From positions 8,575,998 to 8,639,997 of the forward strand of contig JASXTE010000017.1 in assembly GCA_030280995.1 (NCBI GenBank): a DNA stretch of 64,000 nt. The letters are read 5' to 3'. Below the pieces are notes generated by a model. That model worked only from the letters and a program-made list of their open reading frames with translations, did no database searches and was not told the DNA's origin. This stretch comes from Hemileia vastatrix (Eukaryota; Basidiomycota; Pucciniomycetes; Pucciniales; Zaghouaniaceae). Within the stretch, counting starts at the first letter, position 1. Each line of letters opens with the position of its first letter. Of this stretch, positions 1,920 through 56,830 are shown in pieces. Made by a program: the position numbers and the translations under genes.

Positions 1920-2470
1920 TTTACCAGGTTAGACGTCTTGATGGACAGTGATAAATTAAAATGAGTGCATAGAGTTGCATAGAATATTCCAGTTTAAGGT
2001 CATGTGGGATTATCTTCTAAATCTCTTTCAAATTGGCCAAATAACAATTTAATTGCCAGTTTAATGTCATAGAGGACAAAGAATGAGTGATTATCCATTT
2101 TAGGGTCATAGTAGACCAACCATTTTAAACATAATCATCCATAAATCTTGAAAATTTCTTCTTGAATTCAGTTTAATGTCTTGATGGACTAACAGCTCCT
2201 TTATAACCTTTTGAACAAAAGTCTTGAAAAATCATCCAGTTTAAAGTCTTCGAGGACTAACAGATCCAGTAACGTGTAGAATCTTGAAAAATTAGCCAGT
2301 TTAAAGTCTTGGAGGACTAACAGAATATCAATATAGAATCTTTAACAACAGTCTTGAACATTAGCCAGTTTAAAGTCTTTGAGGACTAAAAGCTTGAATA
2401 TAACATCTTGAATGAGAGTCTTGAAAATTTAGCCAGTTTAAAGTCTTGGAGGACTAACAGTTATTGTGAA
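1920..2470 (-). repeat. Distal hairpin array of element B
   Basis: About ten copies of the stem-loop-tail unit lie on the minus strand and read CCAGTTTAAAGTC...GACT on the plus strand. The right part uses the AGTC/GACT stem with the tail TTTAAACTGG. The left part is more diverged, with GGTC-like stems. Spacing is irregular, about 55-85 bp. It corresponds to 11961-12785 of A. Confidence 0.8.
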
Positions 2471-2810: not shown

Positions 2811-3542
2811 TCCCCCGGCCAATTGATGAGCCCTACCCTTGACATTAAACCCACATCCAAGTGAAACTTAATGTGGTTACACAATTTTGAGAAATTGAAA
2901 ATAAAAAATTAATAAATGAAAGTTTAGAAAAACAAAATTTTATGATAATGATCACTGGGGGGGCTCCCTTCAATTTTTAAAAATGATTAGAGACCACCAG
3001 TGAGCATCACCCTTAACAATATTTTATAGTATTATAAAAATTAAAATGAAAGAAAAATATATTTCATTATATAAAAATCTAACATAAAAAAATAACAAAT
3101 AAAAAATAAAAAAGAATCTTGAATCTGGCAGTGGGAGCATTGTTTCTTTGTTTGTACAAGTTTATAGTCTTAGCGGACTTCTTATAAATCAAAAACAAAG
3201 CTGGGATTCAACTAGAAAAAGGGAAAAATTGGTAACAAACATTGTGGGGTAATTGTGTAGAGAGCAGCCAGCCCATCAATTACCCCCAAACTTGCCAATA
3301 TATAATTCAGAAGGTTCCCCTGTGAACACTTCTACCAATAAATAAAATTTATCAATCCAACACATATCTTCTCCATAATTTTTGTTGTTGCTTTTAAGAG
3401 TTTTAAGAATTTTCAATCGAATGTATTCATAAATGTCATAAAATTTCATTAACAGTTTCATCTCCCATACCATAGTAAAACCACAGTAATATTTTTAATA
3501 GGAAAGTAGTTTATCCTCATTTCGGAGTTTCATTTAAAACGA
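2811..3542 (-). other. Structured 3' block and proximal array of element B
   Basis: On the minus strand it carries the conserved hairpins seen after pol in every family member: a GGGGTAATTG/CAATTACCCC stem (3245-3291 region), the GAAG...GTTC/GAAC...CTTC stem (near 3310-3335), and a TCACTGG/CCAGTGA stem. An AGTC/GACT unit with tail ATAAACTTG lies at 3160-3183. The proximal unit CTCCGAAATGAGGATAAA ends at about 3528 and is interrupted by A. The array continues at 14558. Confidence 0.65.
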
Positions 3543-4002
3543 TGTGGTAGCCTAAAGTTTAGTACGGAACCTAAGTATGTAAATGGAGTTATCACGGCAT
3601 GCAAGATTGGCGTTATTATTTTTTATAAAAGGGTTTTATTTAATTTATTTGAGTTTTAAATATGAAGAAATTGGTCACGAGCAAATGCCTACACGAAAAC
3701 AATTTATTTTACGGAGAAAACTTATTTTTACGGTCTGAAAAATTTTTAAGTATCAAGTCGAGTCACTCAAGAACCTTGGGAAATTTTCCCAGAATTTTTA
3801 CTATTTTTCTTATATTTTTAAATGAATTTTAAAGTTTTATAGAAATATTTACGTTTTCAAAAATTACTTAACTTTGATGAATTTTCACGGGGTAATTATA
3901 GCTGCGCAGACTACGAAAATTAGTTTGGTATGTAAAGGGAAAGTAGCTCTATTATGTGTAATTTTTCTAGATTTTTTATTATAGTTTTAAGGTTCTAAAT
4001 TG

Positions 4003-4050
4003 AGTCCGGAAGTCCGGACGGACTCCGTACGGACTCCGTTCCGGCTCCGG
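4003..4050 (+). promoter_or_regulatory. CGG/CCG cluster in LTR
   Basis: In otherwise AT-rich DNA, about 48 bp carries repeated TCCGGA, CCGTACGG and CGG-ACT-CCG arrangements. The box recurs in every A/D LTR (13912-13960, 47653-47690, and a doubled version at 59586-59675). CGG half-sites are the usual targets of fungal Zn2Cys6 proteins, so an upstream activating role is plausible but inferred. In the B LTR it is reduced to one TCCGGA. Confidence 0.45.
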
Positions 4051-4606
4051 ATTGACTCTGGAAGAGCTCTGGAGGGGAAAACTTAGGCACGTGACTAGGA
4101 ATACTTAAGCGCTTCTCAAACTCGAAATTGAGAAGGGGGGACACATCATACAGCTTAATCATTAACCACCACGGTCTCATTTTTTTATTACTCAACAAAT
4201 TAAATAAATTTGTAATACCCTTATAACTTTATATTTTATATATAACATTTTAGAAATACTACTCAACAATTAAAATAACACTTCATACAGGGTATCTTTA
4301 GAAAGGTCTTCATCTCTGGGACTTGATTATTGCTGTCTCATAAAAATTTAAAAAATATTATAAAAACATAAAAGTCAATCTTTTCAGATCTTTCACTGGT
4401 ACACCTTAATTGTTGTTATCAGTATTTCTTTATCAACAGCCACGATCATTTAATCTCAATAAGCGTTAATTATTTTAGAGTTTCATTATTTTTATCAATC
4501 AGATCCAAGTAGATTGGTTAGCTTAGTGATTTAGAACACCTACTTTGTTATTTTTATTGGAAGGACGGGGTTTTCAGCTAAATCCACATATCTCCTCCGG
4601 ATTCTG

Positions 4607-4636
4607 CTTACAGCAAGGCGACTGTAAGAGTTTACC
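4607..4636 (+). promoter_or_regulatory. U5 terminal hairpin and AGTTTACC
   Basis: Stem CTTACAG/CTGTAAG with loop CAAGGCGA is followed by AGTTTACC. B and C keep a CTTACA/TGTAAG stem with altered loops, so the structure rather than the sequence is kept. AGTTTACC is the exact complement of GGTAAACT, the tail of several hairpin units in pol. Confidence 0.6.
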
Positions 4637-4646
4637 TTACCATAGT

Positions 4647-4664
4647 TGGCGCCCAACATGGGGT
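4647..4664 (+). other. Primer-binding site of element A
   Basis: TGGCGCCCAACATGGGG begins two bases after the LTR, the standard position for a tRNA 3'-CCA complement. B (21403-21419) has the same 17 bases, and D (48285-48302) has one change in the core. The tRNA identity cannot be assigned without the host tRNA set. Confidence 0.8.
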
Positions 4665-4714
4665 TTGATTTCTCTAGCTTTCTTTAAAGACTTACTTGGA
4701 TCAAGAACGTTCTT

Positions 4715-4778
4715 AGCCTGCAAGAGGCTTATTTTCTGGAACTCTGATTGGATTTTTGTTATTGGCCTGCAAGAGGCT
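4715..4778 (+). promoter_or_regulatory. Paired leader hairpins
   Basis: Two stem-loops lie in the Gag leader: AGCCT/AGGCT with loop GCAAG at 4715-4729, and GCCT/AGGC at 4765-4777. Both are conserved in B (21290-21360, with altered loops) and D (48353-48420). The location between PBS and Gag start suits a packaging or translation signal (inference). Confidence 0.5.
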
Positions 4779-4818
4779 TGTTATTTTAACGGTTGTTAAT
4801 GCTTTCTTATGTTTTGGG

Positions 4819-6024
4819 ATGTCTTCTACTAGTGGAACTGCTGTGTTGGCTGCTGGTGTACCTGTTAGGGCATCAGTAAGGATTGTATCTTGGGTTGGGC
4901 CCAAGTTTTCTGGAGATGATTTAGAAGGATTTTTACATAGGTATGAATCTGCAGCTGTGATTGATGGTGCTTTACCTTTGGATATGGTGAAGCAGATTAG
5001 GTTCTTTATTTTGGACAGAGAGGTGGAGAAGGAGGTTATTTCTATGGATGGTTATAAATATCAAGATTGGAGAAAGCTCAAGATGGAAATGGAAAAAAGG
5101 TGGCCAAAAGTTTATTCATTGGAGGATCTAAAGGATATAGCTAGGAAATGGGAATCAAAAGGTGGTGTAACATCTCTGCATCAGTATCATCAGTTTATGG
5201 TTGAATTTCAGGTGGTTCTGGATTATTTGTTGGAGTATGAAATATTATTTCATGATAATGCATCAAAGTATATTTTTTGGGATGCTATGGGGGAAAAGGT
5301 TAAGAAAGATGTTTTGATGGTGCTTATTAATGTGAATTTAATGAAGGATTGCCCAGATGGAGAAACTAGGATTCCTGGTATGGAGGTGCTAAAGAAGGTT
5401 ATTTTGGAACATCTGGATACTCATAACTCTGTTGATTTGGACTCTGGAGAAGACACTGAGGTCGCTCAAGAGATAGAAGAGGATGGAGTAAAAGAACTAG
5501 TTACTGAAGAAATTTCGAATTCAGCCATTCCTGAAGATTTTTTCCAGCCTGAAGATATTATTTTTGTTGACTCTTCTATTTGGAAAGAAGAGGTTTCTGA
5601 AGATGAAGATATTATTGTCACTGATGAAGAAAATTTGGATGTTGGGGATAATTTTGTTTTGGATAATTTGGAATTTGATTTAGAGGAATATTTACCTCAG
5701 GTTTTGTCTTCAAAAGCGGAGACTGTCTGCAATTCAGATGTGGATATGGTTTATGAATCTGGTATATGTATGGTGGATTTGTTTCAATCTCAGGAAGAGA
5801 TTTTTATGGAGGATATGGTTTTCCCTGCACTAATAAAGAGTGTAGTGGCATTTGATAATAGGGTGCATAAAGTGGATGCACTCATATTTTGGAAAAAGGT
5901 AGTTTATTTTTTATGTCCTTTTATAGGACAAAATCTGGGAATTTATTTTTGGGTTTTATGGAATTGGTGGATAAGCCCTTGGGGCAAAATTATGGATTAT
6001 CTCCAGGGGATATCAAGAATTTAA
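4819..6024 (+). CDS. gag: Atypical Gag of element A (no zinc knuckle, no protease)
   Basis: A 401-aa frame opens at ATG 4819, chosen because MSS matches the starts of the B and D Gag. Residues 1-200 are homologous to D and B Gag (VRIVSW.GPKF, DMVKQ.RFF, DREVEKEVI). From about residue 210 it becomes a strongly acidic Glu/Asp segment with no counterpart in D. It ends in a hydrophobic, Trp-rich stretch (about 350-390) that could be membrane-associated. The CCHC knuckle and the DSG protease of relatives are absent. While Pol is nearly identical to D, this Gag is much more diverged, which suggests recombination. Gag would form the particle core. Whether this version packages RNA is unknown. Confidence 0.8.
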   Translation: MSSTSGTAVLAAGVPVRASVRIVSWVGPKFSGDDLEGFLHRYESAAVIDGALPLDMVKQIRFFILDREVEKEVISMDGYKYQDWRKLKMEMEKRWPKVYSLEDLKDIARKWESKGGVTSLHQYHQFMVEFQVVLDYLLEYEILFHDNASKYIFWDAMGEKVKKDVLMVLINVNLMKDCPDGETRIPGMEVLKKVILEHLDTHNSVDLDSGEDTEVAQEIEEDGVKELVTEEISNSAIPEDFFQPEDIIFVDSSIWKEEVSEDEDIIVTDEENLDVGDNFVLDNLEFDLEEYLPQVLSSKAETVCNSDVDMVYESGICMVDLFQSQEEIFMEDMVFPALIKSVVAFDNRVHKVDALIFWKKVVYFLCPFIGQNLGIYFWVLWNWWISPWGKIMDYLQGISRI

Positions 6025-6026
6025 TT

Positions 6027-6048
6027 CCTCCGAAATGAGGATAAACTA
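6027..6048 (+). repeat. Hairpin unit at the Gag-Pol junction of A
   Basis: CCTC/GAGG stem, loop CGAAAT and tail ATAAACTA, three bases after the Gag stop. This unit normally lies at the 3' end of pol. Here it sits where D and B have knuckle and protease coding sequence. Confidence 0.7.
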
Positions 6049-6114
6049 CCTAAACTCGGCTGAAATTTTTTTATTGTTATGTCTTCAATTTATTCAGGAT
6101 TCAAATTATTATGA

Positions 6115-9100
6115 ATGCCCTCATTTTTTGGGGTAGCAGGGGCTGATCGCTCAAATGTTGTAATCTCTCCTCAGGATGAGATCCCGGATTGCAATAGGTC
6201 AGCTCACTTGGAGATAATTCAAGTGGATTCTCAATTATTTTCTGTTAATATTACTTTGGAGTGCAAATACGTTTTGGACTTTTCTATATGTTTATTGGAT
6301 TTACCCGGTTTTTCTATTAAATTTAAAAATGGTGAAAAAGGCAAAATGGGCCAAATTAGGTTGGATAAAAATTGGAAGGGTATGTTTATGGACCTCCAGC
6401 AAGAGGGTAAACTGCAAATATAACATCAAAATCCGATTAAAAATCTTGGTATAATTAAAACACAAAAAAATAATTTATGTGAAAATGTTATTCCGGACCT
6501 CCAGCAAGAGGTTAAACTGCAATTATCTCCTTCTATTTTGGACCTCCAGCAAGAGGGTAAACTGCGAAAATCTCATCAAAATACGATTAAAAATCTTAGT
6601 ATAATTAAAACACAAAAAAATAATTTTTGTGAAAATGTTATTTCAGACCTCCAGCAAGAGGTTAAACTGCAATTATCTCCTTCTATTTTGGACCTCCAGC
6701 AAGAGGGTAAACTGCAATTATCACATCAAAATCAAATAAAAAATCTCGGTATAATTAAAACACAAAAAAATAATTTTTGTGAAAATTCAATTCCGGTTCT
6801 CCAGCAAGAGGTTAAACTGCCAACTTTCTTTACGGGTGATTTACTGTTGGATAAGGGAAGAAAAGGTGTTGGAAAATCTGTTTATAAATTAGACGAGGGA
6901 AAGGAGAAAAAGGTAAAATTTAAAAATGAAATAAAATATTTTTCTAATTTTTCTTATTCCGATTCTGACGATGAAGAAGATTCATTTGATGAAAGTTTTA
7001 ATGGCGATACAAAAGGAAATGTTTTACCTCAAGTTAATTTAGATGTGGACGCAGCCAAATATAAGAAAGTAGCAAATAAAGTTCGACCTATTAATGAACC
7101 GCTACCTGCTGAATTAAATCCACCTTTGAGAAGACCAAGGTTATCAAGAGATCCTTATGAAAGTCCCTTGGTAAAGAATCCGCCTGAATTTTCTGAGACG
7201 TCAAGAATCACTTTTAAGAGACTGGGTGTTGTTAATTTTGGACCTGATGGTTGGTTGTCTGGAGAAGAGAAGAAGTTGTTGTTGGATGTGATGGTCAAGC
7301 GAGAGAAGGCCATTGCTTTTGTAGAAGAGGAGAGGGGTGTGTTGAAGCATTCCTATGGGGAGCCTTACAAGATTCCTGTGGTATGTCATGAACCGTGGCA
7401 GCAGAAACCGATTCCTATTCCGGCTGCATTAAAAGAAGCCTATATTGAAGTTGTCAGAGAACGGATACGCACTGGACTTTATGAGCAATCAACGTCAAGT
7501 TATTCTAGTCCTGTATTTTGTATCAAGAAACCGAATGGCAAGCTTAGAGTTGTTCATGATCTTAGGGAATTTAATAGGGTTACAATAAAGGATGCTGGGA
7601 TACCACCTAGTGCTGAGGAGTTTGTTGAAGCGTTTGCAGGGAGAGTGTGCTATGGTTTGGGAGATATTATGGGTGGATATGATGAGAGAGAGTTACATCC
7701 GGACTCAAGGCCTCTCACTACATTTGATACGCCACTTGGACGTTTACAGTTAACAAGATTACCTCAAGGTGCAACAAATTCGGTTGCAGTTTATCAAGCT
7801 CAGATGGCTTGGATCCTTCAAGATGAAATTCCACAATATGCTGGAATCTTTATAGATGATGGAGGAATTAAGGGACCAACAACCGACTATGATAACCAGG
7901 TGTTGGAAGAGAATCCCGGGATACGCAAATTCATTTGGGAGTTTGCAATTACATTAGAAAGAATCTTGTTTCGAATTGAAGAGGCTGGTTTAACTATTTC
8001 AGGTTCAAAATTTTCATGTTGTGTGCCAGCCTTAGAAATATTAGGCCATGTGGTATGTAGAGAGGGTAGGATTATGTCCAAGAAGAAAGTTAACAAAATT
8101 CAGTCCTGGCCAAGACCCAAGAATACGACCGAAGTCAGAGGGTTTTTAGGCGTTTGCCTATATGTTAGAATGTTTATCAAGGACTTTTCTTCATTGGCAG
8201 CTCCATTGAGACAGTTAACGAGAAAGGATGCAGACTGGGAGTGGGATGAAGAGTGTGAGAAGGCGTTTGTGAAGTTGAAGGAGGTTGTGGGGAAGGATTT
8301 AGTCCTGCACAAGTTGGATTATGGAAAAGATGCTGGCAGAATTTATTTAGCAGTTGATTCAAGTCAGATTGCAGCTGGGGCGGTTTTGTCTCAGATGGAT
8401 AAAGCTGGTTACATCAGGCCAGTTAGGTATGAATCTGTAGTATTTACTGAGGTCGAATCAAGATATTCTCAACCAAAATTGGAATTATGTGGTGTGGCGA
8501 AAATACTGAAGAAACTTCAGCATATTTTGTGGGGGCAACATTTTGAGTTGCAAGTGGATGCGAAATCGTTAATCCAGATGATTAATTCCCCAAGTTTACC
8601 AAACGCACCCATGAGGAGATGGGTAGCTTTTATTCAACATTTTTCATTTGATTTAGTTCATAAGCCTGGCAAGACATTTACTATGCCAGATGGTTTATCA
8701 AGGAGACCACCCACTGAAGAAGATTCAGACTCAGAAGAGTTCGATGAAGATATACCTATTATCAAAGCCAGCACTAAAGGAGCTGAAGACTTTCCATACC
8801 TCCCCCATGAGGTTAAACTGGCAGGACTATTGTGTTTAGATTATGATGATGATGACCTCCACCAAGAGGATAAACTGGAAAATAGTTTATATGTTAATAA
8901 AGGTGTTGGAAAAGGTGTAGATAAATTCGGCAGAGAGGAGGTAGAAGAAGATGTGGTGTATGTAGAGGAAAATGGATTGGTAGTGTGGGATAGTAGTAAA
9001 TTAAGGAATGGTGTATATGTTGGAGAATTAGATAATTTAAATAAAAAGTTGGATAAAGAGAAAGAGGTATTTTCAAATACGGTTTTCGAAGGATCCAAAG

Positions 9101-10536
9101 GTTCAGAAGAAAAACGTCGACATAGCTCGATTAAAAATTTATTTAGGGGTCAACGATTATTGGCTCATTCATGTGCAGGTGATATTGGTGATAGAGAAGT
9201 CCCTATTGATGTTATATTAATTGATTTTCAAGATGAAGTCTGGGGTCAGACTGGTTTTTATTTTTTGTTAGTCAAATATTTGTTGACTTTAGAGAGGCCA
9301 GAAGATTGTGAAGACGATGAATGGGTGGCTATCAAGAGGAAGTCATCTACGTTTTACCTATCTGGTCGACGGTTAATGAGGAGGAGGTATCCAAATCCTC
9401 AAGTAGTTATAACTCAACAGAAGGGGCAAGAATTAGTTTTGAAATCACTGCATGAAGATCTCGGGCATAGAGGCGTTGGAGAAACATTTAGAAGAATTTC
9501 TGATCGATTTTGGTGGCCTGGCATGAAGATGGCTGTTAAACAGTGGGTTCAGTCATGCGAAGAATGTCAAAGACGAAGTTATTTAAGGCCAAAAGAACCT
9601 GGACGCGCGACCGGTGAATATACGCTCTTTGGAAGAGTTAGTTTAGATGCTGTTCATATAAAAGAGGGACGGTATAAATATTTAATTGTGGCCAGAGATG
9701 ATTTATCTGGTTGGGTAGAGGCAGCGCCTCTTATTAATTTAACTGCCAAAAATGTGGCAGAATTTTTTTTGAATAATTGGGTATATAGGTATGGGGTGAT
9801 GAAGTTGGTAACGGTAGATGGAGGTCCTGAATTTGGGACAGAGTTTAAAGAGGCCGTATTGAAAGTTGGATCAAAGGTTAGGGTAGCAACCCCATATTAT
9901 CCTGAAGCTGAAGGCATGGTTGAAAGAGGGCATCAAGTTATCAAGGATGCTTTAGTTAAAATGTGTGGGACAAGTGCCGAAAAATGGAGGCACTATTTAC
10001 CTTTAGTTTTATTTGCTGATCGAATCACTGCCAAAAGGACGACCGGATTTTCACCTTATGAACTTGTTTTTGGACAGATAGCAGTTTTACCGGTCGATTT
10101 AGAAGCTGAATCATATCTTGGAGTTGACTGGGACACGGTCAAAACTACTGAAGAATTATTGTGTGCAAGAATGATGCAGCTAGAAAAGAAAGAAGAATAT
10201 TTAGAAAAGGCATATTCGCAGATGATGAAGATCCGAAATCAATCAGTCAGATATTGGGATGAGCGGTTGGCACATCGATTAAGGAAACCTTTGAACCCAG
10301 GTGATATGGTCCTGGTGTATAATAGGAGTTTGGAAAGTCAGTGGGGAAAAATGTTTGCAGATAGGTGGAATGGACCGTATAAAATCAAGGAGCAAGTTTC
10401 CAGCGGTTCATATGTGCTAGAAGAGTTGGATGGAGTAGTATTGAAGAAGAGGGTAGCGGCCGATCAAGTGAAACGGTTCTATCCTAGAGGCACCAGGAGT
10501 GCCGAAGTCTTCCTCCGAAATGAGGATAAACTATGA
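6115..10536 (+). pseudogene. pol: Pol of element A: RT, RNase H, integrase (one in-frame stop)
   Basis: One frame from ATG 6115 to TGA 10536, broken only by TAA at 6421-6423. The rest, 6424-10536, is open. In order: hairpin-encoded repeats (6391-6815); RT with motif A region DIMGGYDERE and FIDD catalytic pair (about 7660-7870); RNase H with AVDSS, E and VDAKS acidic residues (8341-8560) and MPDGLSRR; a linker with two more hairpin units; integrase with HHCC (H..H near 9451, CEEC near 9556), D of LDAVH, D of VDGGPEFG and E of GMVERG; then a GPY/F-type module (RWNGPYKI, near 10365). No DSG protease and no chromodomain. The stop codon overlaps a hairpin tail. Readthrough or later initiation would be needed for full Pol. 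Confidence 0.9.
6391..6815 (+). repeat. Coding tandem repeat built on the hairpin unit
   Basis: Six units (near 6393, 6498, 6543, 6648, 6693, 6798) alternate about 105 and 45 bases apart, a 150-bp compound period. Each has stem CCTC/GAGG, loop CAGCAA and tail GTAAACTG or TTAAACTG, read in frame as LQQE-(G/V)-KL. The intervening 105-base spacer encodes IKNLGIIKTQKNN. D keeps a shorter version at 51320-51495. Confidence 0.85.
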
Positions 10537-10820
10537 TATTAATGAAACTTTATGGATTCCTCCGCAATGAGGATAAACTATGATATCAATGAAAATTTAT
10601 GGATCCTCCGCAATGAGGATAAACTATGAAACTTCTTAAATTTTATGGATCCTCCGCAATGAGGATAAACTATGATATCAATGAAACTTTATGGATTCCT
10701 CCGCAATGAGGATAAACTATGAAATTTCTTAAATTTTATCAACTCCGAAATGAGGATAAACTACAATTTTAATGACTTTTATTAAATTTATACCTCCGCA
10801 ACGAGTATAAACTATCTTCT
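10511..10820 (+). repeat. Proximal hairpin array of element A
   Basis: Seven units of CCTC/GAGG, loop CGCAAT or CGAAAT, and tail ATAAACTA, spaced about 45-50 bp. The first encodes the last residues of Pol and its stop. Spacers read 'tgatatcaatgaaactttatggat'-like and are also repeated. Confidence 0.85.
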
Positions 10821-10983
10821 TATTTTTATCAAAAATACTTTACTATCATTACACTGCATATGGGCGATGAAACTGTGATGAAACATAACGAAATGCAAGA
10901 AAACCTTCATTGAAAATTTTCAAAATTAAAATTTCTTAAAATATGGGTGAAGATAGTGTTGGAAAATTTTTTAAAATTTATTG

Positions 10984-11500
10984 GAAGAAGTGTTCACAGG
11001 GGAACCTTCTTAATTTAATATTGGCAAGTGTGGGGGTAATTGATGGGCTGGCTGCTCTATACACAATTACCCCATAATGTTCGTTTCCAAAATTTTCCCT
11101 GTTTCTAGTTGAATCCTGGCTTTGTCTTTTAATTTTAGGAAGTCCACTAAGACTATAAACTGGAACGAATCAAGAGACACCGCTCTCAACGCCGGATTCA
11201 AGATTCTTTTATTTTATTTTGTTTTTGATTTTTTTTTATGTTAGATTGTGATTTCTTTTCTTTAATATATATTATGAATTATTGTAAAGGTGATGCTCAC
11301 TGGTGGTCTCTAATCATTTTTATAAATTGGAGGGAGCCCACCCAGTGATCATCATTATAAAAATTATCTTCTAAAAACTTTCATTTATTTTCTTTTCTTT
11401 TCAATTTCTCAAAATTGTGTAACCACATCAAGTTGCACTTGGATGTGGGTATGATGTCGAGGGTACGGCTCATCAAATGGCCGGGGGGCATCTTTTAAAA
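10984..11500 (+). other. Conserved structured block of element A 3' region
   Basis: Successive stems: GAAG.GTTC/GAAC.CTTC (10987-11009), GGGGTAATTG/CAATTACCCC (11033-11073), an AGTC/GACT unit (11141-11163), TCACTGG/CCAGTGA (11298-11349) enclosing a copy of the polypurine core ATTGGAGGGAG, and CCACATC/GATGTGG (11423-11449). All recur in B, C (37020-37530) and D (55530-56040). No reading frame. Confidence 0.6.
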
Positions 11501-11609
11501 TTTTATTTTAAAATTTTTTTAAGTACTTTTTTTATCTTTCTTTTCACATTCATTTATCTTTCTTTAAAATTAAATTTTAACTTTTATTTCAAAACTATCT
11601 TTTCTAAAA

Positions 11610-11744
11610 TCTGTTATTTTAAATTTTAAAAAAAAAAAATATATAAAAAAAAAAAAAATTAAAAAAAAATAAAAATAAAAAAATAAAAAATAAAAATAAA
11701 TAAAAAAAAATAAATAAAAATAAAATAAAAATAATAAAAAAAAA

Positions 11745-11777
<33 letters not shown>

Positions 11778-11860
11778 AAAAAAAAAAAAAAAATAAATAA
11801 AATTAAAATTAAAATTTATTAATTAAATCAAAATCATTATTATATTTCTTAGTTTTATTT
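11610..11860. repeat. A-rich microsatellite of element A
   Basis: Long A runs broken by T or TAA repeats (for example TAATAATAATAA near 11745), with nothing coding. Confidence 0.8.
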
Positions 11861-11960
11861 TTTTTAGTTTTCATTCTTTTTAGTTTTATTCATTTAGTTT
11901 AGACAGGAAACAGGGTCTAGGAGAACTCAATACCAATGGAATTTTACTTCAAGATATCTG

Positions 11961-12785
11961 TTAGTCCTCCAAGACTTTAAACTGGCTACTGTTCAAGACG
12001 TTCTTTAAGGTTTTTTTTTACACGTATTTTGGATCTGTTAGTCCACCAAGACTTTAAACTGGCTACTGTTCAAGACATTCTTTAAGGTTTTTTTTACACG
12101 AATTTTGGAGCTGTTAGTCCTCCAAGACTTTAAACTGGCTAATTTTCAAGACTTTCATTAAAGATTTTATATTGGAGCTGTTAGTCCTTCAAGACTTTAA
12201 ACTGAATTTCAAGGATTTTCAAGATTTTATGGATATTTTTGGAGACGGATTTTTTTTATATAAATCAAATGTTAGGTCCACCATGACCTTAAACTGGAGT
12301 GTTATCAAATGTTAGGTCCACCAAGACCTTAAACTGGACTATTATCAAGTGTTGGGTCCACCATGACCTTAAACTGAACTTCTTATCGATTAAATGTTTG
12401 GTCCACCATGACTTTAAACTGGTAGTTCATTCATTGTTTAGTCCACTATGACTTTAAACTAGAAAATTAATATCTGCAGGATAATTCAACATTCATTGGA
12501 CCACTATGGCCTTATATTGGATTACTTGTCGATCAAATGTTTGGTCCACTATGACATTAAACTGGATTATCAAATTTATTCAATCTTTGGTCAAGCCTAG
12601 GCCTTACTTAGGAATATATCAAGACATTTATGCACTTAAACGATCTTTGGTCCACCAAGACCATAAACTGGCAATCGATTATATGTTTGGTCCACCAAGA
12701 CTTTAAACTGGAATGTCAATCTTGTTTGGATAACTCAATTCAATCTTTTAATTTATCACTGTCCACTAAGACTTTAAACTGGTTA
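11961..12785 (+). repeat. Distal hairpin array of element A
   Basis: At least 14 units. The first block (11963-12210) uses AGTC/GACT with loop CTCCAA or CACCAA. The second (12275 onward) uses GGTC/GACC with loop CACCAT, CACCAA or CACTAT. Both keep the tail TTAAACTGG. Some units have a G-U-compatible stem (GGTC with GACT). Spacing is 42-85 bp. Confidence 0.85.
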
Positions 12786-12829
12786 TTCAATTATTTCTGG
12801 AATTGGGTGTTGATAAGCTTTAGGAGGCT

Positions 12830-13437
12830 AAAATTTTAGGTGGTGATGATGCTAAAGAAAGCATAATGGTTAATTAGGTAAAATTTGTGGCGCTTTAACA
12901 TGGTCTAAAGTTAATATTATTATTGGAAGCCTGGCAAAAGTATTTTATGGGTTTGCTGTAAAGCAAAGTTTGAAAATTGTGATGAGGAATCAGAAGTTAG
13001 GATGGTAGTTGGATTTTAGGGAATGATTTTTTTTAGTGCCTCATAGTTAGGCCATTTTTTTTGGTGTGAAGCTTGGAGGACCTTATGGCGAGATTGGAAT
13101 CATAGAATTCGGCTCAGTGGGGGGCCCTATGAGGTTGGAATCAGGAGTATTCGGCTCATAGGAAGATCCACTCTCTCAATGCTGTGACAAGAAGGAAGAC
13201 TGGTATATGGGAGTCTGAAGGGATTCAAACCTTGCTCTCAGTAGTGGAATCATCACAAGATTTATATTATTTTATTTTATGTTATATCAAGCCAGAGAAG
13301 AAGAAAGAACGTTTTTATTATAAAGATTTATAAGAAGACCAGCTAAAACAAATTTATCAAATTATTTTATTAGATAAGATAATTCTTTTGGAATTTCTCA
13401 ACCACTTATGCAAAGTTATAAGAATGGGGACATTCTC
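12830..13437 (+). other. Element A 3' segment lacking the antisense gene
   Basis: Collinear with D 57780-58330. It then jumps, at about 13410, to the sequence that in D lies just before the PPT (from about 59068). Roughly 730 bp containing D's zinc-cluster gene are missing. No coding potential remains. Confidence 0.7.
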
Positions 13438-13451
13438 GATTGGAGGGAGGA
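13438..13451 (+). other. Polypurine tract of element A
   Basis: GATTGGAGGGAGGA directly abuts the TGTGG start of the 3' LTR, the expected plus-strand priming site. The preceding 'GAATGGGGACATTCTC' is shared with C, D and F. Confidence 0.85.
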
Positions 13452-14553
13452 TGTGGTAGCCTAAAGTTTAGTACGGCACCTAAGTATGTAAATGGAGTTA
13501 TCACGGCATGCAAGATTGGCGTTATTTTTTTTTATAAAAGGGTTTTATTTAATTTATTTGAGTTTTAAATATGAAGAAATTGGTCACGAGCGAATGCCTA
13601 CACGAAAACAATTTATTTTACGGAGAAAACTTATTTTTACGGTCTGAAAAATTTATAAGTATCAAGTCGAGTCACTTAAGAACCTTGGGAAATTTTCCCA
13701 GAATTTTTACTATTTTTCTTATATTTTTAAATGAATTTTAAAGTTTTATAGAAATATTTACGTTTTCAAAAATTACTTAACTTTGATGAATTTTCACGGG
13801 GTAATTAGAGCTGCGCAGACTACGAAAATTAGTTTGGTATGTAAAGGGGAAGTAGCTCTATTATGTGTAATTTTTCTAGATTTTTTATTATAGTTTTAAG
13901 GTTCTAAATTGAGTCCGGAAGTCCGGACGGACTCCGTACGGACTCCGTACGGGCTCCGGATTGACTCTGGAAGAGCTCTGGAGGGGAAAACTTAGGCACG
14001 TGACTAGGAATACTTAAGCGCTTCTCAAACTCGAAATTGAGAAGGGGGGACACATCATACAGCTTAATCATTAACCACCACGGTCTCATTTTTTTATTAC
14101 TCAACAAATTAAATAAATTTGTAATACCCTTATAACTTTATATTTTATATATAACATTTTAGAAATACTACTCAACAATTAAAATAACACTTCATACAGG
14201 GTATCTTTAGAAAGGTCTTCATCTCTGGGACTTGATTATTGCTGTCTCATAAAAATTTAAAAAATATTATAAAAACATAAAAGTCAATCTTTTCAGATCT
14301 TTCACTGGTACACCTTAATTGTTGTTATCAGTATTTCTTTATCAACAGCCACGATCATTTAATCTCAATAAGCGTTAATTATTTTAGAGTTTCATTATTT
14401 TTATCAATCAGATCCAAGTAGATTGGTTAGCTTAGTGATTTAGAACACCTACTTTGTTATTTTTATTGGAAGGACGGGGTTTTCAGCTAAATCCACATAT
14501 CTCCTCCAGATTCTGCTTACAGCAAGGCGACTGTAAGAGTTTACCTTACCATA
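13452..14553 (+). repeat. 3' LTR of element A
   Basis: 1102 bp, same length as the 5' LTR and differing at few sites (for example within the CGG box and one base of 'ctccGgat/ctccAgat'). It is followed by the target duplication and then element B. Confidence 0.9.
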
Positions 14554-18883: not shown

Positions 18884-21250
18884 TCAACCTTCATCTCCTA
18901 GGGGTGCTAGATGCATATAAAGCCTTCTCATATTGTCCCCTGTAATCTCCAAACTAATGCCCATACCAGCTTGATAACCAATCTTGGCTTCAAAATCCAT
19001 CAAAAAAGGACAACTAAGAACCGTTTTAACAGCTCCTCTGGCCACATTGAAATGAACCTTTCCAACCAATCCACCAACACATAATGTAACATGCTCTGCT
19101 GTGCCCATCAGCTCAGTTTCATGCCCTCCAATACCTCTGAGATTACCACCAGTGCCAGATTTAATTGGAAAGCCTATAATCATTGCTTGCTCTAAAGAAA
19201 TCAAATTAATTTGAGACCCAGAATCTACTAGGGCCTTAACCTCTCTACCATTGAGAGTAACCATCAAATAACCTAAAGATGCAGAAAAATGAGTTTCCAC
19301 CTCCTCACCAAACTTCTCCACATTTTCACATATATATTCCACCTCTCCAGTGGACACTCTTCTCCTTGTCAGATGCTTCTTCTGCTTTTTTGAAAGGGCT
19401 GGACTAATCGTAAATAATTCACCTAAGGATAAAGGAATTTGAAAATGATTCAATCTTCCTAAAACTGTTTCCATCGCATTCTCTTGTCCAGCAAAAATTG
19501 GCCTCTCATATTGAGCCCTAGATTTTGTTACCTTGGCCCTGGGCACCTCTTGGGGACCCACATTGCCATCTTCACTACTAACAACCCTAGCTCCATAACC
19601 AGCTACTTTCACTAATCCAGATCCATCACTGGTCCTCCTTACCTCTTCCATAGGAGTAGGACCACTAAAACTTGGTCTGGGAAGAGATGTCAAAGGTAAA
19701 TCCTCCTCAGAATCTGAATCTTTGTCCACCGGCATAGGCTCACCATTTAAATCCAACTTTCCAAAACTAGGAGGCCCCATATCAGCCATCCCCTTCTGCA
19801 TATTATAAATTTTGTCCTTAGAGTAAGGTTTCTTTTCCAACTTTTTAATTTCTGCCTTGCCTGGTTTAGCCCTTAATTGGCTCTGAATTCTACTCTTAGC
19901 TTTAGTAGCAGCTGCTCTTCTAGAAGCATTGACATCATATTCACCAGCCATACAACTTTCCTCTGCCCTTATCACAGAGGATAACTCCAAACCACCAAAT
20001 GAAGCTGAGTAAATTGCCTTTTTGACCTCTTTACCTTTTCCTTTATCTACCTTTTCCACATCTTTACCATCTTTAACCTTTTCTTCATCATCACCAGGTA
20101 ACTGTTCAAACCTGGTCCTTTTCCCCAAATACATATTCCTCCCCAACAAATCCAAGGGAGCTTGACCTTCACTGTACTTGATGAAAGATCCATCAGGGAT
20201 TTTATAAACCTTTCCATCAAATTTTACTCTACCAGAAATCTAGTCCCTATCCAAAAAATAACATTGTCCAGCCTTGTGTCCCCTCTTATTACAATAAGAG
20301 CACACCCTGGACTTGCCATATCCACCTCTAAAACCATTCCCAACATTACCATTAAATCTATAATTCCTCCTCTCATAACCTCTAGATTGGTAAGAAGAAG
20401 AAGTTGAAGTCGAAGCCACATGTGCTCTATTGGCTTTTTGAGTCTCTTAAACAAATATCTTTTATTGTTTAGTTAAATTGGCCAAGTGATTGAGCATCTT
20501 GTTGTCTAAATTTCCCTCAACTTTAGAAACAGGCTGTCCCATCTGAGCCTTCTTGGATTCTTGAGCTTGAATCATGATATTGTTGTTTTCAGCCAATACT
20601 TCACTAATTTTGCTAACATATTGAGTACATGATTCTTGATATTTTTCCAGTGCCATGAGTTTTAAGTAGCCTTGAATATTCTCCTTGATGATCTCCAAAG
20701 CTAGCAGTTTCTGTTCACCATTAGGCAGATCCTTCATCAAAATTTTCCTAGACAGTTCTTTTAAAACATCTATCCTAAATTCCCTACTAAAAGAAGACCA
20801 GAATAGATCCTTGGCCTGAATTTCATGGCCCAATTCCTCCACCAAAATCAGATATTCCACCACTTCATCAAACTGTCCCCCTAACTTTTGGAAGTCCACC
20901 ATATTACAAACACCACCTTTATCTTGCCAATTACTGACAATCTTATTGAGATCCACCATAGTATACCTGACACCCCATCTATCAAATATCTTATTTGACA
21001 GCCTTATTCAATCAAAACTTTTATAACCCTCCATAGAAATGACCTCCTTTTCCACCTCTCTGTTAACAATAAAAAACATGATCTGCTTTACCATATCCAG
21101 GTTAGTAGCTCCATCCACCAAAGCAGAAGCTTCATATCTGCTCAAAAACCATTTAACTTCTTCCCCATTAAACTTGGGTCCATCCCAAGAAACAATCCTA
21201 ACTGATGGTGTCATAGGAAGAGACACACCAGATCCAGCAGCAGAAGACAC
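18884..21250 (-). pseudogene. gag-pro: Gag-protease of element B, frameshifted
   Basis: Starts at ATG 21250 (MSSAAGSG). Capsid-like N-terminus matches D; segments lie at 21008-21250, 20462-20959 and 18884-20155 in shifting frames. A CCHC knuckle (CSYCNKRGHKAGQC) is readable near 20260-20310 in a frame different from its neighbours. An aspartic protease motif, VDSGSQINLIS, lies near 19190-19230, followed by GTGGNLRGIGG. This is the full Gag-Pro arrangement of the family that A has lost. The slip-site region (18755-18770) follows. Confidence 0.85.
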
Positions 21251-33381: not shown

Positions 33382-34209
33382 ATGCCTTCCTCACTTTCAA
33401 ATCGTGATAAATTACATAAAGCAATGACTTTCATGGCTCTTGAACTGCTCTTGGACTCTGATTGCGATTCTGATTCTGATCTAGAAGAAGATTTTGTCTT
33501 TTTATCAAAAATGGCCACTAAAAGTTACCTTCTTCCCGGAAAGCCTCAAGTAATTTATACCCCCAAGTACACCATCCAAACACTTCTTAAACTATCTACA
33601 CCCAGTTTTAGACAGCTGTTCAGGACTTCTCAGGAATGTTTCCTTAAATTTCTTGAGCTTATTCAGGATCATCCCATATTTCACAATAATTATCAAAAAG
33701 AACAACAACATCCTTCAATTTAATTGGCCATCACACTATGTCATTTGGGTTCAAATGGTAATGGAGCCGCTTTGAAATGTTTAGAAAATGTCTTTGATTT
33801 AGGGTATGGTTCAGTTAACACTTATACCAAACAATGTATCACTGCCATTAACTCCTTGTAATCTCAACTTCTCACCTGGCCAACAAAAGAAGAGCGACTT
33901 CAATCATCTCAGGTTATGCAAGCAGAGGGCTTCCCAGGATGTATTGGTTTTGTTGATGGTACTGCTATTCCTTTGAGCCAGAAACCTGCTCAAGGTGGAA
34001 ACAATTACTTTCACATTCTCATCAAAAATTTTCACCAAAATATTTACAAGTCAAAAAAATTCTATATCTGTTTAAAAAATTGGCAATACTCTCCCCTGAA
34101 TTTTATTGAAGCAAGGGGTGGATATCACCAAAATTTTTCTAAGTCATCAATTTCACATGTCAGATTTAAAAATTTGGCAATACCCCCCCCCTGCATTTTA
34201 TTGAAGTAA
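33382..34209 (+). pseudogene. DDE transposase relic (DDE_Tnp_4 / Harbinger type)
   Basis: A single frame from ATG 33382 with TAA at 33721-33723 and another near 33859. An acidic N-terminus (DSDCDSDSDLEED), then FRQLFR...CFLKFLELI, LCHLGSNGNGAALKCL and GFPGCIGFVDGTAIPLSQKP. The FVDGT aspartate is the likely first catalytic residue. Homology ends soon after at about 34000, where low-complexity sequence containing a 70-bp near-duplicate ('ttggcaatac.c.cccctg', 34081 and 34175) takes over. The other two catalytic acids are not found. It would cut and paste its own ends; this copy is dead. Confidence 0.65.
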
Positions 34210-36832: not shown

Positions 36833-37798
36833 TATTTTATTTTTATTTTATTTATTTATTTATTTATTTTTTTTATTAGTTTTTTTTTTGATTTTTTAAC
36901 TATGAAAATAATAAAAGGTTATAAAAATTGTTATGAAATAAAATTTAAAATTTAATTTTTTTAAAAAAAATGATAAACAAATTTGAAATAAAAAATTTAT
37001 GAAATGTAAAATAAAATTTAAAAGATGCCCCCCGGCCAATTGATGAGCTGTACCCTTGACATCATACCCACATCCAAGTGCAATTTGATGTGGTTACACA
37101 ATTTTGAGAAATTGAAAATACAAAATTAATATATGAAAGTTTAGAAAACCAAAATTTTATTATAATGATCACTTGGTGGGCTCCCTCCAATATGTAAAAA
37201 TGATTAGAGACCACCAGTGAGCATCACCCTTAACAATATTCTATAGTATTATAAAAATTAAAATGAAAGAAAAAAATATTTCATTATATAAAAAATCTAA
37301 CATAAAAAAAATAACAAAAACAAAAATAAAAAAGAATCTTGAATACGGCAGTGAAAGCATTGTCTCATTGTACGTTCCAGTTTATAGTATTAGCAGACTT
37401 CCTATAGATCAAAAACAAGGCCAGGATTCAACTAGAAACAGGGAAAAATTGGTAACAAATATTGTGGGGTAATTGTGTATAGAGCAGCCAGCCCATCAAT
37501 TACCCCCAAACTTGCCAATATTTGATTCAGGAGGTTCCCCTGTGAACACTTCTACCAATATAAAAAATTTATCAATCCAACATATTTCTTCTCCATAATT
37601 TTTGTTGCTTTTAAGAGTTTTAAGAATTTTCAAACAAATGTCTTCTTAAATGTCATAAACTTGGTTAACAGTTTTGTCTCCAAACCATAGTAAAACGACT
37701 GTAATATTTTTAATAAGAAAGAAGTTTATCCTCATTCTGGAGTTAAACTTTGAAAAAATTTTATTTAATCAATTATGTAGTTTATCTTTTTTTCGGAG
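36833..37798 (-). other. AT spacer, structured block and proximal array of element C
   Basis: 36833-37020 is A/T microsatellite. 37021-37570 holds the conserved stems (CCACATC/GATGTGG, TCACTTGG-type, GGGGTAATTG/CAATTACCCC, GTTC/GAAC). Proximal hairpin units lie near 37722-37748 and 37778-37800 on the minus strand and are decayed. Confidence 0.6.
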
Positions 37799-47192: not shown

Positions 47193-48282
47193 TGTGGTAG
47201 CCTAAAGTTTAGTACGGCACTAAATTCGCAAATGGAGTTATTACGGCGTGCAAGATTGGTGTTATTATTTTTATATAAAAGGGTTTTATTTAATTTAATT
47301 GAGTTTTAAATATAAAGAAATTGGTCACGAGCGAATGCCTAATAAAAAACAATTTATTTTACAGAGAAAACTTATTTTTACGGTCTGAAAAGCTTATTAG
47401 TATCAATTCGAGTCACTCAAGAACCTTGGGAAATTTTTCCAGAATTTTTACTATTTTCTTATATTTTTAAATGAATTTCAAAGTTTTATAGAAATATTTA
47501 CGTTTTCAGAAAATTACTTAACTTTGATGAATTTTCACGGGGTAATTAGAGCTGCGCAGACTACAAAAATTAGTTTGGAAGATAAAGGGGAAGTAGCTCT
47601 ATCATGTGTAATTTTTCTAGATTTTTTATTATAGTTTTTAAGGTTCTAATTGAGTCCGGAAATCCGGACGGACTCCGTACGGGCTCCGGATTGACTCTGG
47701 AAGAGCTCTGGAGGGGAAAACTTAGGCACGTGACTAGGAATACTTAAGTGCATCTCAAACTCGAAATCGAAGGGGGGGAAACATTATACAGCTTAATCAT
47801 TAACCACCACGGTCTTATTTTTTATTACTCAACAAATTAAATAAATTTGTAATACCCTTATAACTTTATATTTTATATATAACATTTTAGAAATACTACT
47901 CAACAATTTAAATCACACTTCATACAGGGTATCTTTAGAAAGGTCTTCATTGCTGGGACTTGATTATTGCTGTCTCATAAAAATTCAAATTATTATAAAA
48001 ACATAAAATTCAATCTTTTCAGATCTTTCACTGGTACACCTTAATTGTTGTTATCAGTATTTCTTTTCTCAACAGCCACTTTTATTTAAATCTCAATAAG
48101 CGTTAAATATTTTAGAGTTTCATTATTTTTATCAATCAGATCCAAGTTGACTGGTTAGCTTAGTGATTTAGAATTCCCATTTTGTTATTTTTTATTGGAA
48201 GGACGGGGTTTTCAGCTAAATCCACATATCTCCTCTGGATTCTGCTTACAGCAAGGCGACTGTAAGAGTTTACCTTACCATA
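47193..48282 (+). repeat. 5' LTR of element D
   Basis: 1090 bp, TGTGGTAGCC to TTACCATA, collinear with the A LTR, with a shorter CGG box (47653-47690), the E-box and the U5 hairpin. Confidence 0.9.
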
Positions 48283-48284
48283 GT

Positions 48285-48458
48285 TGGCACCCAACGTGGG
48301 GTTCGATTTCTCTAGCTTTCTTTAAAGACTTATTTGGATCAAGAACATTCTTAGCCTGCAAGAGGCTTATTTTCTGGAGCTCTAATTGAATTTTTGTTAT
48401 TGGCCTGCAAGGGGCTTGTTATTTTATCGATTGTTAATGCTTTTTGTTACTTATTGGG
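48285..48458 (+). other. PBS and leader of element D
   Basis: PBS TGGCACCCAACGTGGGG (48285-48301), with one core change from A. The leader hairpins AGCCT/AGGCT at 48353-48367 and GGCCT/GGGCT near 48402-48416 follow, then Gag ATG 48459. Confidence 0.7.
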
Positions 48459-51066
48459 ATGTCTTCTTCTGCTGTTGCTTCTGGATCTTCTAACCCTCTT
48501 ACTCCCTCAGTTAGAATTGTTTCTTGGGATGGCCCAAAGTTTGATGGGGAGGAGGTTAAATGGTTCATTAGCAGGTATGAAGCTGCTGCTGCTGTTGATG
48601 GTGCTTCTCATGTGGATATGGTGAAGCAAGTTAGGTTTTTTATTGCTGATAGGGAGGTGGAAAAAGAGGTTATTGCTATGCAGGCATTCAAGGACAAGGA
48701 TTGGGTTAAGCTTTCTAAAGCTATGGTTGATAGATGGGGTGTTAGGTATACTATGATGGACCTCAATAAAATTGTTGGAGACTGGCAAGCAAAAGGTGGT
48801 GTTTCTTCTATGGAAGACTTCAAAAATCTGTGTGTTCAGTTTGATGAAGTAGTTGAATATCTTATTTTGGTGGACTAGTTAGTGCATGAGAACCAGGCAA
48901 AAGATTTTTTTGGTCAGCATGCAGCAGGGATATTCGAATGGACGTCTTGAAGGATCTTTCAAGAAAAGATTTGATGAAGGAACTGCCTAATGGTGAGCAG
49001 AAACTGCCGGCTCTGGAGATTATCAAGGACAACATTTAAGCCCATCTAAAGTTATTGGCGTTGGACAAATATCAAGAGTCCTGCCCTCAATATGTTAGCA
49101 AGGTTAGCGAAGTTTTGGCCAAAAACAACGATATTATGGTCAAAGCCCAGGAGGCCAAGAAGGCACAAATGGGATTACCTGCTGCTAAAGTGGAAGGCAA
49201 TGTAGATAATAAGATGGTCTATCATTTGGCCGATTTATCTAAACAGTTAAAAATATTTGTTCAAGAAACCCAGAAGGCTAACAAGGCCCCAATCGCTTCT
49301 TCGTCGACGTCAACTTCTTATCAATCCAGAGGTTATGAGCTTCAAAATTATAATGGCAATAATAATGGTAACCGCTTCCCAGGCAATGGGAGAAATGGTG
49401 GGAATGGTGGTAGTAGTTATAGAGGTGGCTATGATGAGCCAAAGGTGTGCTCCTATTGTAATAGGAGGGGGCACAGAGCAACAGTTTGTTTTGCTCTTGA
49501 TAAGGATATGGATGCTGGGCGAGTTTTATTTGATGGTAAAGTTTATAAATTTCCTGATGGTTCGTTCATCAAGCCCAGTGATGGACAGTCTCCTTCTGAT
49601 TTGGTCAGAAGAAGTTTAACGGCTGAAAGGAGAGCCAGATTTGAAGAGGTGACAGATGAAGATGTTAATGCCAAGGGTGGCAAAAATGGTAATGGTAATG
49701 GTGGAAAAGCTGACAAAGGTAAAGAGAAAGAGGTCAGTAAAGCCACATTTTCTACTTCTTTTGGTGGTTTAGAGCTGGCGACGGTTGCCCAGGTGGAGGG
49801 TAGCTGTATGGCTGGCCAATACGATGTTAATGCTGCTAGAAGAGCAGCTGCTACTAAGGCGAAGAGTAGCATTCAGAGCCAATTGAGGGCTAATCCTGGC
49901 AAGGCCAATAACAAAGTGAACCCTTACTCTAAGGACAAGAATTCTAGTTCTCAAACTGCCGCCAACAAATTGAACCCTTACTCTAAGGACGAGTTATATA
50001 AAATGCAGAAGGGGATTGCTGATATGGGGCCCCCTAGTTATGGCAAGTTTGATTTAAATGGTGAGCCTATTCCAGAGGATGATTCGGATTCTGAGGAGGA
50101 CGTACCGTTGGCGTCTCTACCCAGACCAAGTTTTAGTGGTCCTATCCCAATGGAGGGAGTAAGAAGGACTAGCGATGGATCAGGATTAGTGCAAGAAGCT
50201 GGTGAAAGAGTTAGGGTTATAGAAAGTGAAGATGTTATAATGGGGCATAAGATGGCTCGGTTGGACCTCAAGAGGTACCCAGGGCCAAGGTTGTTAAATC
50301 AAAGGTCCAGTATGAGCGGCCAGTAGTTTCTGGTCAAGCTAATGTGATGGACGCAGTTTTGAATAGGGTTAATCATCTGCAGATTCCCTTATCTTTGGGG
50401 GAGTTATTTACGATTAGTCCGGCGCTTGCTGAAAAGCAAAAGAAGCATTTGACGTAGCTTCGGGTTTCCACTGGAGAGGTGGAATATATTTGTAAAAATG
50501 CTGAAAAGTTTGGGGAAGATGTAGATACACATTTTTCCGCTCCCCTGGGTTACCTGGTGGTAACTCTTAACGGTAAAGAAGTAAAGGCCTTGGTCAATTC
50601 AGGGTCTTAAATTAATTTAATTTCATTGGAGCAAGCGACGAGTATAGGCTTGCCAATTAAAAGTGGAACTGGGGGAAACCTCAGAGGCATTGGAGGGCAT
50701 GCAACTGAGCTGATGGGTACAGCTGAGCATGTCAGGTTAGGCATTGGTGGATCTGTTGGTAAGGTTCACTTTTATGTGGCCAGAGGATCAGTCAAAACTG
50801 TTCTTGGTAGTCCTTTTTTGATGGATTTTGAGGCCAGGATAGGGTATCAAGCTGGCATGGAGATTAGTTTGGAAATCACTGGTGAAGATATGCAGAGGTT
50901 ACATATGCGGTTAGCGCCTCCTGGAGATGAAGGTTGGGAAACACGGCCAGGGATTACTACTCTGTGCCAGTGTTGTGTTTGCACCAAGAAGCGGCATATA
51001 AAACGGACGGCTTCTGGTGAATTATGTTTGTTTGAAAAGGATGAATGCCCTCATTTTTTGGGATAG
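48459..51066 (+). pseudogene. gag-pro: Gag-protease of element D, with stops and frameshifts
   Basis: N-terminal Gag 48459-48878 ends at a stop. The central part, 49055-50326, is in another frame with a CCHC knuckle (CSYCNRRGHRATVC, 49448-49489) after a Gly/Asn-rich stretch, and an alternating basic/acidic linker follows. The protease near 50590 has its catalytic DSG changed to NSG (50596-50604) and a stop at 50608-50610. The remaining 50626-51066 frame ends at the slip site. It shows the complete Gag-Pro plan that A lacks. Confidence 0.85.
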
Positions 51067-55214: not shown

Positions 55215-55370
55215 AATTTCTTAATTTTTATGGATCCTCCGCAATGAGGATAAACTAGGATGTTTTTTTTAAAAAAAAAAAATCTTATTGATTCCTCCAC
55301 AATGAGGATAAAGTATGATATCTACGAAATTTTATGGATTCCTCCGCAACGAGGATAAACTATCTTTTTG
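55190..55370 (+). repeat. Proximal hairpin array of element D
   Basis: Four CCTC/GAGG units with ATAAACTA-type tails, about 45-60 bp apart, the first overlapping the Pol stop. Confidence 0.8.
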
Positions 55371-55529
55371 TTTTTATCAAAAATACTTTACTATCGTTAC
55401 ACTGCATATGGGTGACGAAACTGTGATGGAACATAACAAAATGCGAGAAAACCTTCTTTGAAAATTTTCAAAATTTAAAATTCTTAAAATATGGGTGAAG
55501 ATAGTGTTGGAAAATTTTAAAAATTTATT

Positions 55530-56045: not shown

Positions 56046-56222
56046 AAAAAATTATTACTTTTTTTATCTTTCTTTTCACATTCGTTTATCTTTCTTTAAA
56101 AATTAAATTTTAACTTTTATTTCAAAACTATCTCTTCTAAAATCTTTTATTTTATATTAAAAACAAAATAAAAATTCAAAATAAATAAAAAATAAAATAA
56201 ATAAAATCAAAAAAAAAAAAAA

Positions 56223-56620: not shown

Positions 56621-56639
56621 AAAGGGACGTAGTAGTGCA

Positions 56640-56830
56640 AAGAATGAGAAATATGGAGAATTAAATTATACTGTATAAAATAAAATAAAATAAAAATTAA
56701 AAAAAAATTAAAAATTAAAAAAAAATAAAATGAAATAAAAATAAAATAAATAAAAATAATATAAAAATAAAATAAAATAAAATAATAAAATAATAAAAAA
56801 ATTAATTAATTAAATCAAAATTATTATTAT
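56640..56830. repeat. A/T microsatellite of element D
   Basis: AAATAAAAT-type simple sequence at the position of the A-rich spacer in A. Confidence 0.7.

Follow-up and report, generated by a model that had tools for sequence, protein, structure and literature searches.

The 64,000-nt stretch analysed here (hereafter the window; contig JASXTE010000017.1, positions 8,575,998 to 8,639,997, of the 747.6-Mb, 791-contig Hemileia vastatrix assembly GCA_030280995.1) is crowded with Ty3/gypsy retrotransposons, named A to D, and each of these carries between 9 and 29 copies of a short loop-and-tail unit for which we favour, with a little better than even confidence and judging from sequence features, a function in cis within the sense genomic transcript, as an RNA element bound by a protein. 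The unit comprises a 4-bp stem, a hexaloop of the form C-NNN-A-W and the conserved tail TAAACTGG; it occurs in pol codons, in arrays between pol and the 3' long terminal repeat (LTR), and next to a pair of hairpins, H1 and H2, that covary between families. The reading at the RNA level, which is moderately supported, is favoured because of the sense orientation of the units, the polarity of their wobble pairs, the asymmetry of loop and tail, their constant distance from a covarying hairpin and their presence inside codons, and from these we infer a role in the control of processing, export or packaging of the genomic RNA.

Abundance, orientation and classes of the unit

When units were selected blind to the stem, by the loop CNNNAW and the tail TAAACT only, the window returned 73 matches, 55 of them with four standard stem pairs, while 30 first-order random sequences gave means of 2.8 matches and 0.07 fully paired ones (maxima 9 and 1), which bears out the initial annotation of this DNA in describing a hairpin-tail unit repeated dozens of times; its examples at 6393, 11963 and 12275 are present as cited. 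All 55 fully paired units lie in the sense orientation, and within the element spans 69 stem-blind matches are sense and three antisense, none of the latter with four pairs, one further match being located just outside the span of D. Extraction of WTAAACTGG, proposed in that annotation for window and genome, yielded 38 occurrences in the window against 2.41 expected (standard deviation, sd, 1.31), and the general unit with the tail GG matches at 56,961 places in the genome, with 234 for the reversed pattern; the class with the tail ACTA adds 18,037 places, with none for the reversed pattern, and since the two patterns cannot overlap, together they amount to about 75,000 places.

The uniform tail and the three stem classes that had first been described hold in part. 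The tail WTAAACTGG is abundant, but units early in pol carry NTAAACTGC and those of the block after pol carry ATAAACTA; the classes CCTC/GAGG, AGTC/GACT and GGTC/GACC all exist, but so do the additional types ACTC/GAGG, GGTC/GACT, TCTC/GAGG and TGTC/GACA. Likewise, the order CCTC, AGTC, GGTC, said to be common to all four elements, is kept in A, B and C, whereas D follows it only on inclusion of its GGTC unit at 2102, whose tail has one mismatch. Loci sampled from a single contig fall into families according to the identity of their pol DNA to that of A (about 85% for C/D, about 80% for E and about 75% for F and G), and units are present in every one of them.

In element A (plus strand), a CCTC/GAGG unit lies at 6027–6049, just after the stop (6024) of the gag-side open reading frame (ORF), and a 150-bp tandem repeat with six units precedes the reverse transcriptase (RT) domain at 6393–6820; four of these units are inside the pol ORF, and the other two share its frame immediately before it. 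Two further in-frame units occupy the linker between RNase H and integrase (8799–8878), and a block of CCTC/ACTC...GAGG units with the tail ATAAACTA, the first of which ends pol, extends over 10512–10820. In the stretch of about 2.9 kb from pol to the 3' LTR there follow the AGTC/GACT unit of the composite module described below (11141–11163), an array of four AGTC/GACT units (11963–12205) and an array in which GGTC/GACC or GACT units predominate (12275–12782). The corresponding positions in element B, also on the plus strand, are 51323–53556 for the pol units and 56945–57658 for the arrays.

Pairing and covariation of the stem

Among 224 distinct contexts selected stem-blind, the fractions with Watson-Crick pairing, from the outer to the inner pair, are 0.75, 0.93, 0.97 and 0.94, so that pairing is least strict at the outer position; at the second position G-C is found in 131 contexts and C-G in 77, together 208 of the 224, and C.C or G.G never. 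In 92 distinct units, standard pairs fill 83.7% of the stem cells, compared with 63.2% (sd 1.9) after shuffling, a level reached in none of 500 shuffles, and with 28–49% when the stem is slid; cells changed on both sides number 77 against 36.8 in shuffles, again with 0/500, as for the covariation score. One double change can be followed at a homologous unit, which is GGTC/GACC in A (12649–12671) and in B, where its tail is damaged, and TGTC/GACA in D (2056–2078, minus strand), a replacement of G-C by T-A. TGTC/GACA recurs at 126 places in the genome, about two thirds of those listed being letter-identical to D, and the change is therefore inherited and not the flaw of a single copy. Stems compatible with G-U pairing, also mentioned in the initial annotation, do exist: the G.U form GGTC/GACT is found at 5,293 places in the genome and the mirror A.C form AGTC/GACC at 249, an excess that has the polarity expected if the sense RNA pairs.

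Constraint on nucleotides within pol

The initial annotation considered the repeats non-coding, which does not hold for seven units of element A, starting at 6543, 6648, 6693, 6798, 8799, 8856 and 10512, which are in-frame parts of the pol ORF (6538–10536). Among the 23 stem-blind units of the pol stretches of A to D, the codon CTC is present in 21 and GAG in 22, counts that should not be taken as a probability, since these units represent some ten sites, occupied by copies related to one another; in the whole pol ORF of A, CTC accounts for 11 of 130 leucine codons and GAG for 44 of 115 glutamate codons. Of the three exceptions, two are in D (ATC and CTG) and the third is a unit of C at the end of pol. 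The middle residues of the encoded peptide vary (Q, P, H, R, N), and the near-fixation of CTC and GAG in units read in frame indicates that the constraint acts on the nucleotides. A coding role for the arrays outside pol was ruled out by the stops in CNCTAA loops and by spacings not divisible by three. Beyond pol, in 18 aligned modules of several families, the mean fraction of the majority letter is 0.91 in the unit, 0.73 in the preceding spacer and 0.38 downstream.

The composite module of H1, H2 and the unit

Downstream of pol, element A contains the hairpin H1 (10985–11011), with 10 pairs that covary between families, followed by H2 (11033–11073), with a 10-bp stem and an apical stem, and then, by eye, the AG of a YAG resembling a 3' splice site (11137–11138), 2 nt before the module unit. 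The H1-H2 pair is located at 55526–55639 in B (plus), where the unit starts 48 nt on, at 3227–3340 in D (minus), with the unit at 47 nt, and at 37447–37560 in C (minus), next to a unit damaged at one base. A model of the module matches once in each of A to D and twice or more in most of the sampled pieces of E, F and G. In 36 of 39 modules the unit lies 47–53 nt downstream of H2, and of the remaining three, two show, by eye, a unit with one damaged base and the third none. The last part of the spacer consists of a pyrimidine-rich tract and a YAG, 2–7 nt before the unit, the YAG being found by eye in 16 of 18 aligned modules; no splice donor was found.

In an alignment of 15 modules, in which one gap column was moved by hand, H1 is 92% paired, compared with 80% after shuffling (0/2000), and five of its ten pairs are changed on both sides, against 2.35 in shuffles (40/2000); the figures for H2 are 95.7% and 94.2% (2/2000), with one double-change pair. 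RNAalifold recovered both hairpins unprompted during model building. With 39 distinct rows aligned to the model, and hence biased toward its structure, 95.9% of the cells of H1 and H2 together are paired, compared with 91.2% in shuffles (0/500), and seven pairs show double changes against 3.9 (8/500).

A stable hairpin, H3, lies farther downstream in A (11289–11356, plus strand; z score −4.5, 0/200 shuffles as stable) and has a counterpart in family F (L096:724–796; z −4.3, 0/200), while a fourth candidate does not share this stability (z −1.0 and −0.2). Resembling inverted-repeat stretches (CCACATC...GATGTGG) are present at 11428–11500 in A and at L096:955–1050 and L096:1135–1216; they fold no better than shuffles, and a change from AAG/CTT to AGG/CCT was noticed in them by eye. 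The module had also been considered as RNA polymerase III A and B boxes, and the unit tail as pairing with the spacer, and both ideas were dropped since, as judged by eye, neither is kept across all families. In Rfam 15 nothing in the window attained the gathering score, and the region 10500–13500 gave only matches with E values of at least 0.3, below gathering.

Antisense reading frames in families F and G

Between pol and the 3' LTR, some sampled pieces have antisense ORFs, all on the minus strand: L092:2049–3176 (375 amino acids, aa), L096:1558–2070 and L096:3050–3433, and L098:2409–3290. They show paired CX2CX6C-like motifs, and in all three loci the antisense ATG has a unit array upstream of it. 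The two ORFs of L096 match the Pfam family Zn_clus with E values of 0.12 and 0.0013, below the Pfam cut-off in both cases, and no TRP28 domain was found in them by Pfam; the search with the L092 ORF scored 7,987 candidates, all of which fell short of an E value of 0.01. Element A has no antisense ORF of at least 45 aa between pol and LTR, and family E none of at least 70 aa in 2 kb.

Proposed mechanism and rival explanations

If the unit acts in the sense RNA, its hairpin and tail would dock an RNA-binding protein, either the Gag or nucleocapsid of the element or a protein of the host, and the presence of many units would turn the transcript into a multivalent platform by which unspliced genomic RNA is marked. 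Such marking could hold back splicing and favour the export and packaging of full-length RNA, and it is proposed to act on processing because the module unit is preceded by an acceptor-like YAG; the weakness of the stem suggests that the protein may complete the fold. A more elaborate version, in which the module of H1, H2, acceptor-like tract and unit, together with the units dispersed in pol linkers, would form a modular RNA code, a platform deciding the fate of the RNA and present in some 75,000 copies, is put forward tentatively and stands clearly short of even in our estimate.

Several observations weigh against an RNA element. As regards the unit, pairs with double changes number 4 against 2.9 in shuffles, as many being reached in 107 of 500; seven unit stretches folded alone gave z scores from −1.4 to +1.2; the ACTC/GAGG type, usual just after pol in most of the other sampled families, has an outer A.G mismatch; and the excess of G.U over A.C is owed largely to two positions in the arrays of family A, which exist in thousands of copies, the inner pair differing little in this respect (U.G 1,374, C.A 1,075). 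Since the stem classes are old and each keeps to its position, there are few independent switches, and a palindromic DNA site could also change in step. As regards the module, RNAalifold predicts no structure for an alignment of 54 rows with fragments included, retains H2 but pairs H1 differently with 12 rows, and the 196-nt H1-H2 stretch of A folds at z −1.28, with 17 of 200 shuffles as good. The covariation of the unit is genuine but rests on few independent events; accordingly, the initial proposals that the stems covary and that selection acts on the structure of RNA or single-stranded DNA stand as far as pairing above shuffled and slid levels is concerned, and are held back by the double-change pairs, the few switches and the marginal fold of the lone hairpin.

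The unit could instead be recognised as double-stranded DNA: a protein acting as a dimer or through several fingers would bind a palindrome split by a spacer, for example GTC-N6-GAC, together with its constant flank, and the arrays would then work as enhancer, as insulator or as promoter sites of the antisense gene of F and G. This reading is judged unlikely but stays a serious rival because palindromic sites can also change in step, a dimer site being able to alter both half-sites together, and because some families have an antisense gene next to the arrays, which lie upstream of its ATG, the L096 ORFs giving the weak match to a Zn2Cys6-like domain; the weak RNA stem and the precedent of the Drosophila gypsy element, with its 12 Su(Hw) sites (PMC6911044), also fit a DNA site. 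A DNA site does not, however, predict the polarity of G.U over A.C or the RNA-type covariation adjoining the unit, and it accords poorly with the asymmetric loop and tail, with the exclusively sense orientation of the paired window units, with units located within pol codons, far from promoters, and with the persistence of the arrays in A, which has no antisense frame of the size given above. A rather improbable alternative is that the units are functionless by-products of reverse transcription, short repeats that spread and are kept alike through template switching and unequal exchange, so that the shared orientation and letters come from copying and the three stem classes from three old founders. 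The tandem arrangement of the arrays and their variable copy number would agree with this, as would a gag-side segment of A (about 5046–6111) that has no listed match in B and ends near the unit at 6027–6049, and a linker unit of D at 16340 that looks copied from its neighbour; it fails to account for the conservation of separate, non-tandem units between families with about 75–85% identity in pol, for the constant spacing to H2, for the fixed pol codons, for a second pair that is never mixed, or for the origin of TGTC/GACA at a homologous unit. Finally, the constraint might be on a peptide, L-x-x-E-x-K-L, serving for example as a protease site between pol domains, with the non-coding copies as relics. 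The position of units between pol domains would suit it, and the pol proteins P0006 and P0018 (Puccinia coronata) carry DLCNEVKL, VLRDEGKL and LLRNERKL before RT, which would fit the unit at the protein level (the inspection of this region covered 44 of 120 listed homologs). This explanation is nevertheless very improbable, given that the L, E and K codons are near-invariant while the middle residues vary, that non-coding units are conserved despite the in-frame stop of their CNCTAA loops, and that, in 38 aligned homologs, the linker from RNase H to integrase contains no close match, two having a loose LDVERRL.

Relation to known systems

Retroviral genomes contain cis-acting RNA elements for export, such as the constitutive transport element (CTE) and the Rev response element (RRE), for splicing control and for stability, as well as packaging hairpins. 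The unit resembles these in combining hairpins with single-stranded recognition bases and in lying, in some cases, near the 3' end or splice sites; to our knowledge, however, retroviral elements of this kind occur in one or few copies at a single place, whereas here each element of the window has 9 to 29 loop-and-tail units, for which such a function is proposed. The bacterial repetitive extragenic palindromic (REP) sequences and the hairpin elements of fungal mitochondria are mobile short palindromic repeats found at thousands of places, and the units differ from them in travelling inside LTR elements, with no independent spread in the sampled loci.

The closest known layout is that of the plant Retand elements, whose long regions between pol and 3' LTR hold tandem repeats and antisense ORFs (PMC11963269), the origin and possible function of the repeats being stated there as unknown. 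The elements described here share with Retand the long stretch between pol and 3' LTR, the tandem repeats and, in some families, antisense ORFs with a possible DNA-binding domain. The relevant passages call the Retand repeats family-specific and mention no hairpins or secondary structure (PMC11963269), whereas here, in a fungal host, one hairpin-tail unit extends across diverged families, is present also in pol and is tied to covarying hairpins. In the Drosophila gypsy insulator, another Ty3/gypsy case with about a dozen internal copies of a short protein-binding motif, the Su(Hw) sites are DNA sites within one 460-bp block (PMC6911044); the binding protein is putative in our case, and the units, unlike that block, are hairpin-shaped, spread over several zones, in sense orientation only and beside RNA structures. 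Among the titles and abstract openings listed by searches of the open-licence literature, none describes a hairpin-tail unit that is repeated in this way and joined to a composite module. Repeats between pol and the 3' LTR of large LTR elements are usually unexplained, and a motif that is shared across families, lies inside codons and keeps a fixed distance to covarying hairpins makes the function of such repeats directly testable; moreover, this single motif allows tens of thousands of element pieces to be traced in an inflated fungal genome.

Carrier elements and further observations

Elements A (3541–14553) and B (47193–60264) lie on the plus strand, and C and D, related to them and with less certain ends, on the minus strand, D being interrupted by A. 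The LTRs of A (3541–4644 and 13450–14553, plus strand) are 99.1% identical over 1104 bp, and those of B about 96–97%. The pol ORF of A matches the Pfam families RVT_1, RT_RNaseH and Integrase_H2C2, the score for rve being under the cut-off, and the two LTRs together with the order RT, RNase H, integrase in pol identify the carrier as Ty3/gypsy. An aspartic protease was detected by Pfam in an ORF of D (18884–20155), while the scan found no protease in the ORF of A at 4756–6024; a CX2CX4HX4C motif, a candidate zinc knuckle, was spotted by eye in an ORF of B (49055–50326), for which Pfam gave no knuckle match. The gag-side segment of A at 5046–6111, in place of which B has 48680–51041, may be a replacement via template switching.

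The best pol homologs overall reach 76% identity, and those above 70% from named species belong to Puccinia striiformis and P. coronata, besides two proteins (P0021, P0038) labelled as a Sphingobacteriaceae bacterium metagenome-assembled genome (MAG), close homologs that probably stem from eukaryotic contamination of the MAG bin. The pol query gave no confirmed relative in viral contigs, nor was one confirmed in bacterial and archaeal contigs; a degenerate pattern of the unit matched 52 stretches of viral contigs, once in each, which was taken as chance. No tRNA genes were found in the window. An A-rich tract of 130–175 bp separates the module from the arrays in A (11628–11802) and in B (56675–56805). 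Between parts of element C, short plus-strand ORFs at 33382–34209 look foreign to it and are perhaps an inserted DNA transposon, and part of another pol, in which an RNase H domain and an integrase zinc-binding domain were recognised, lies at 61211–62260 on the minus strand.

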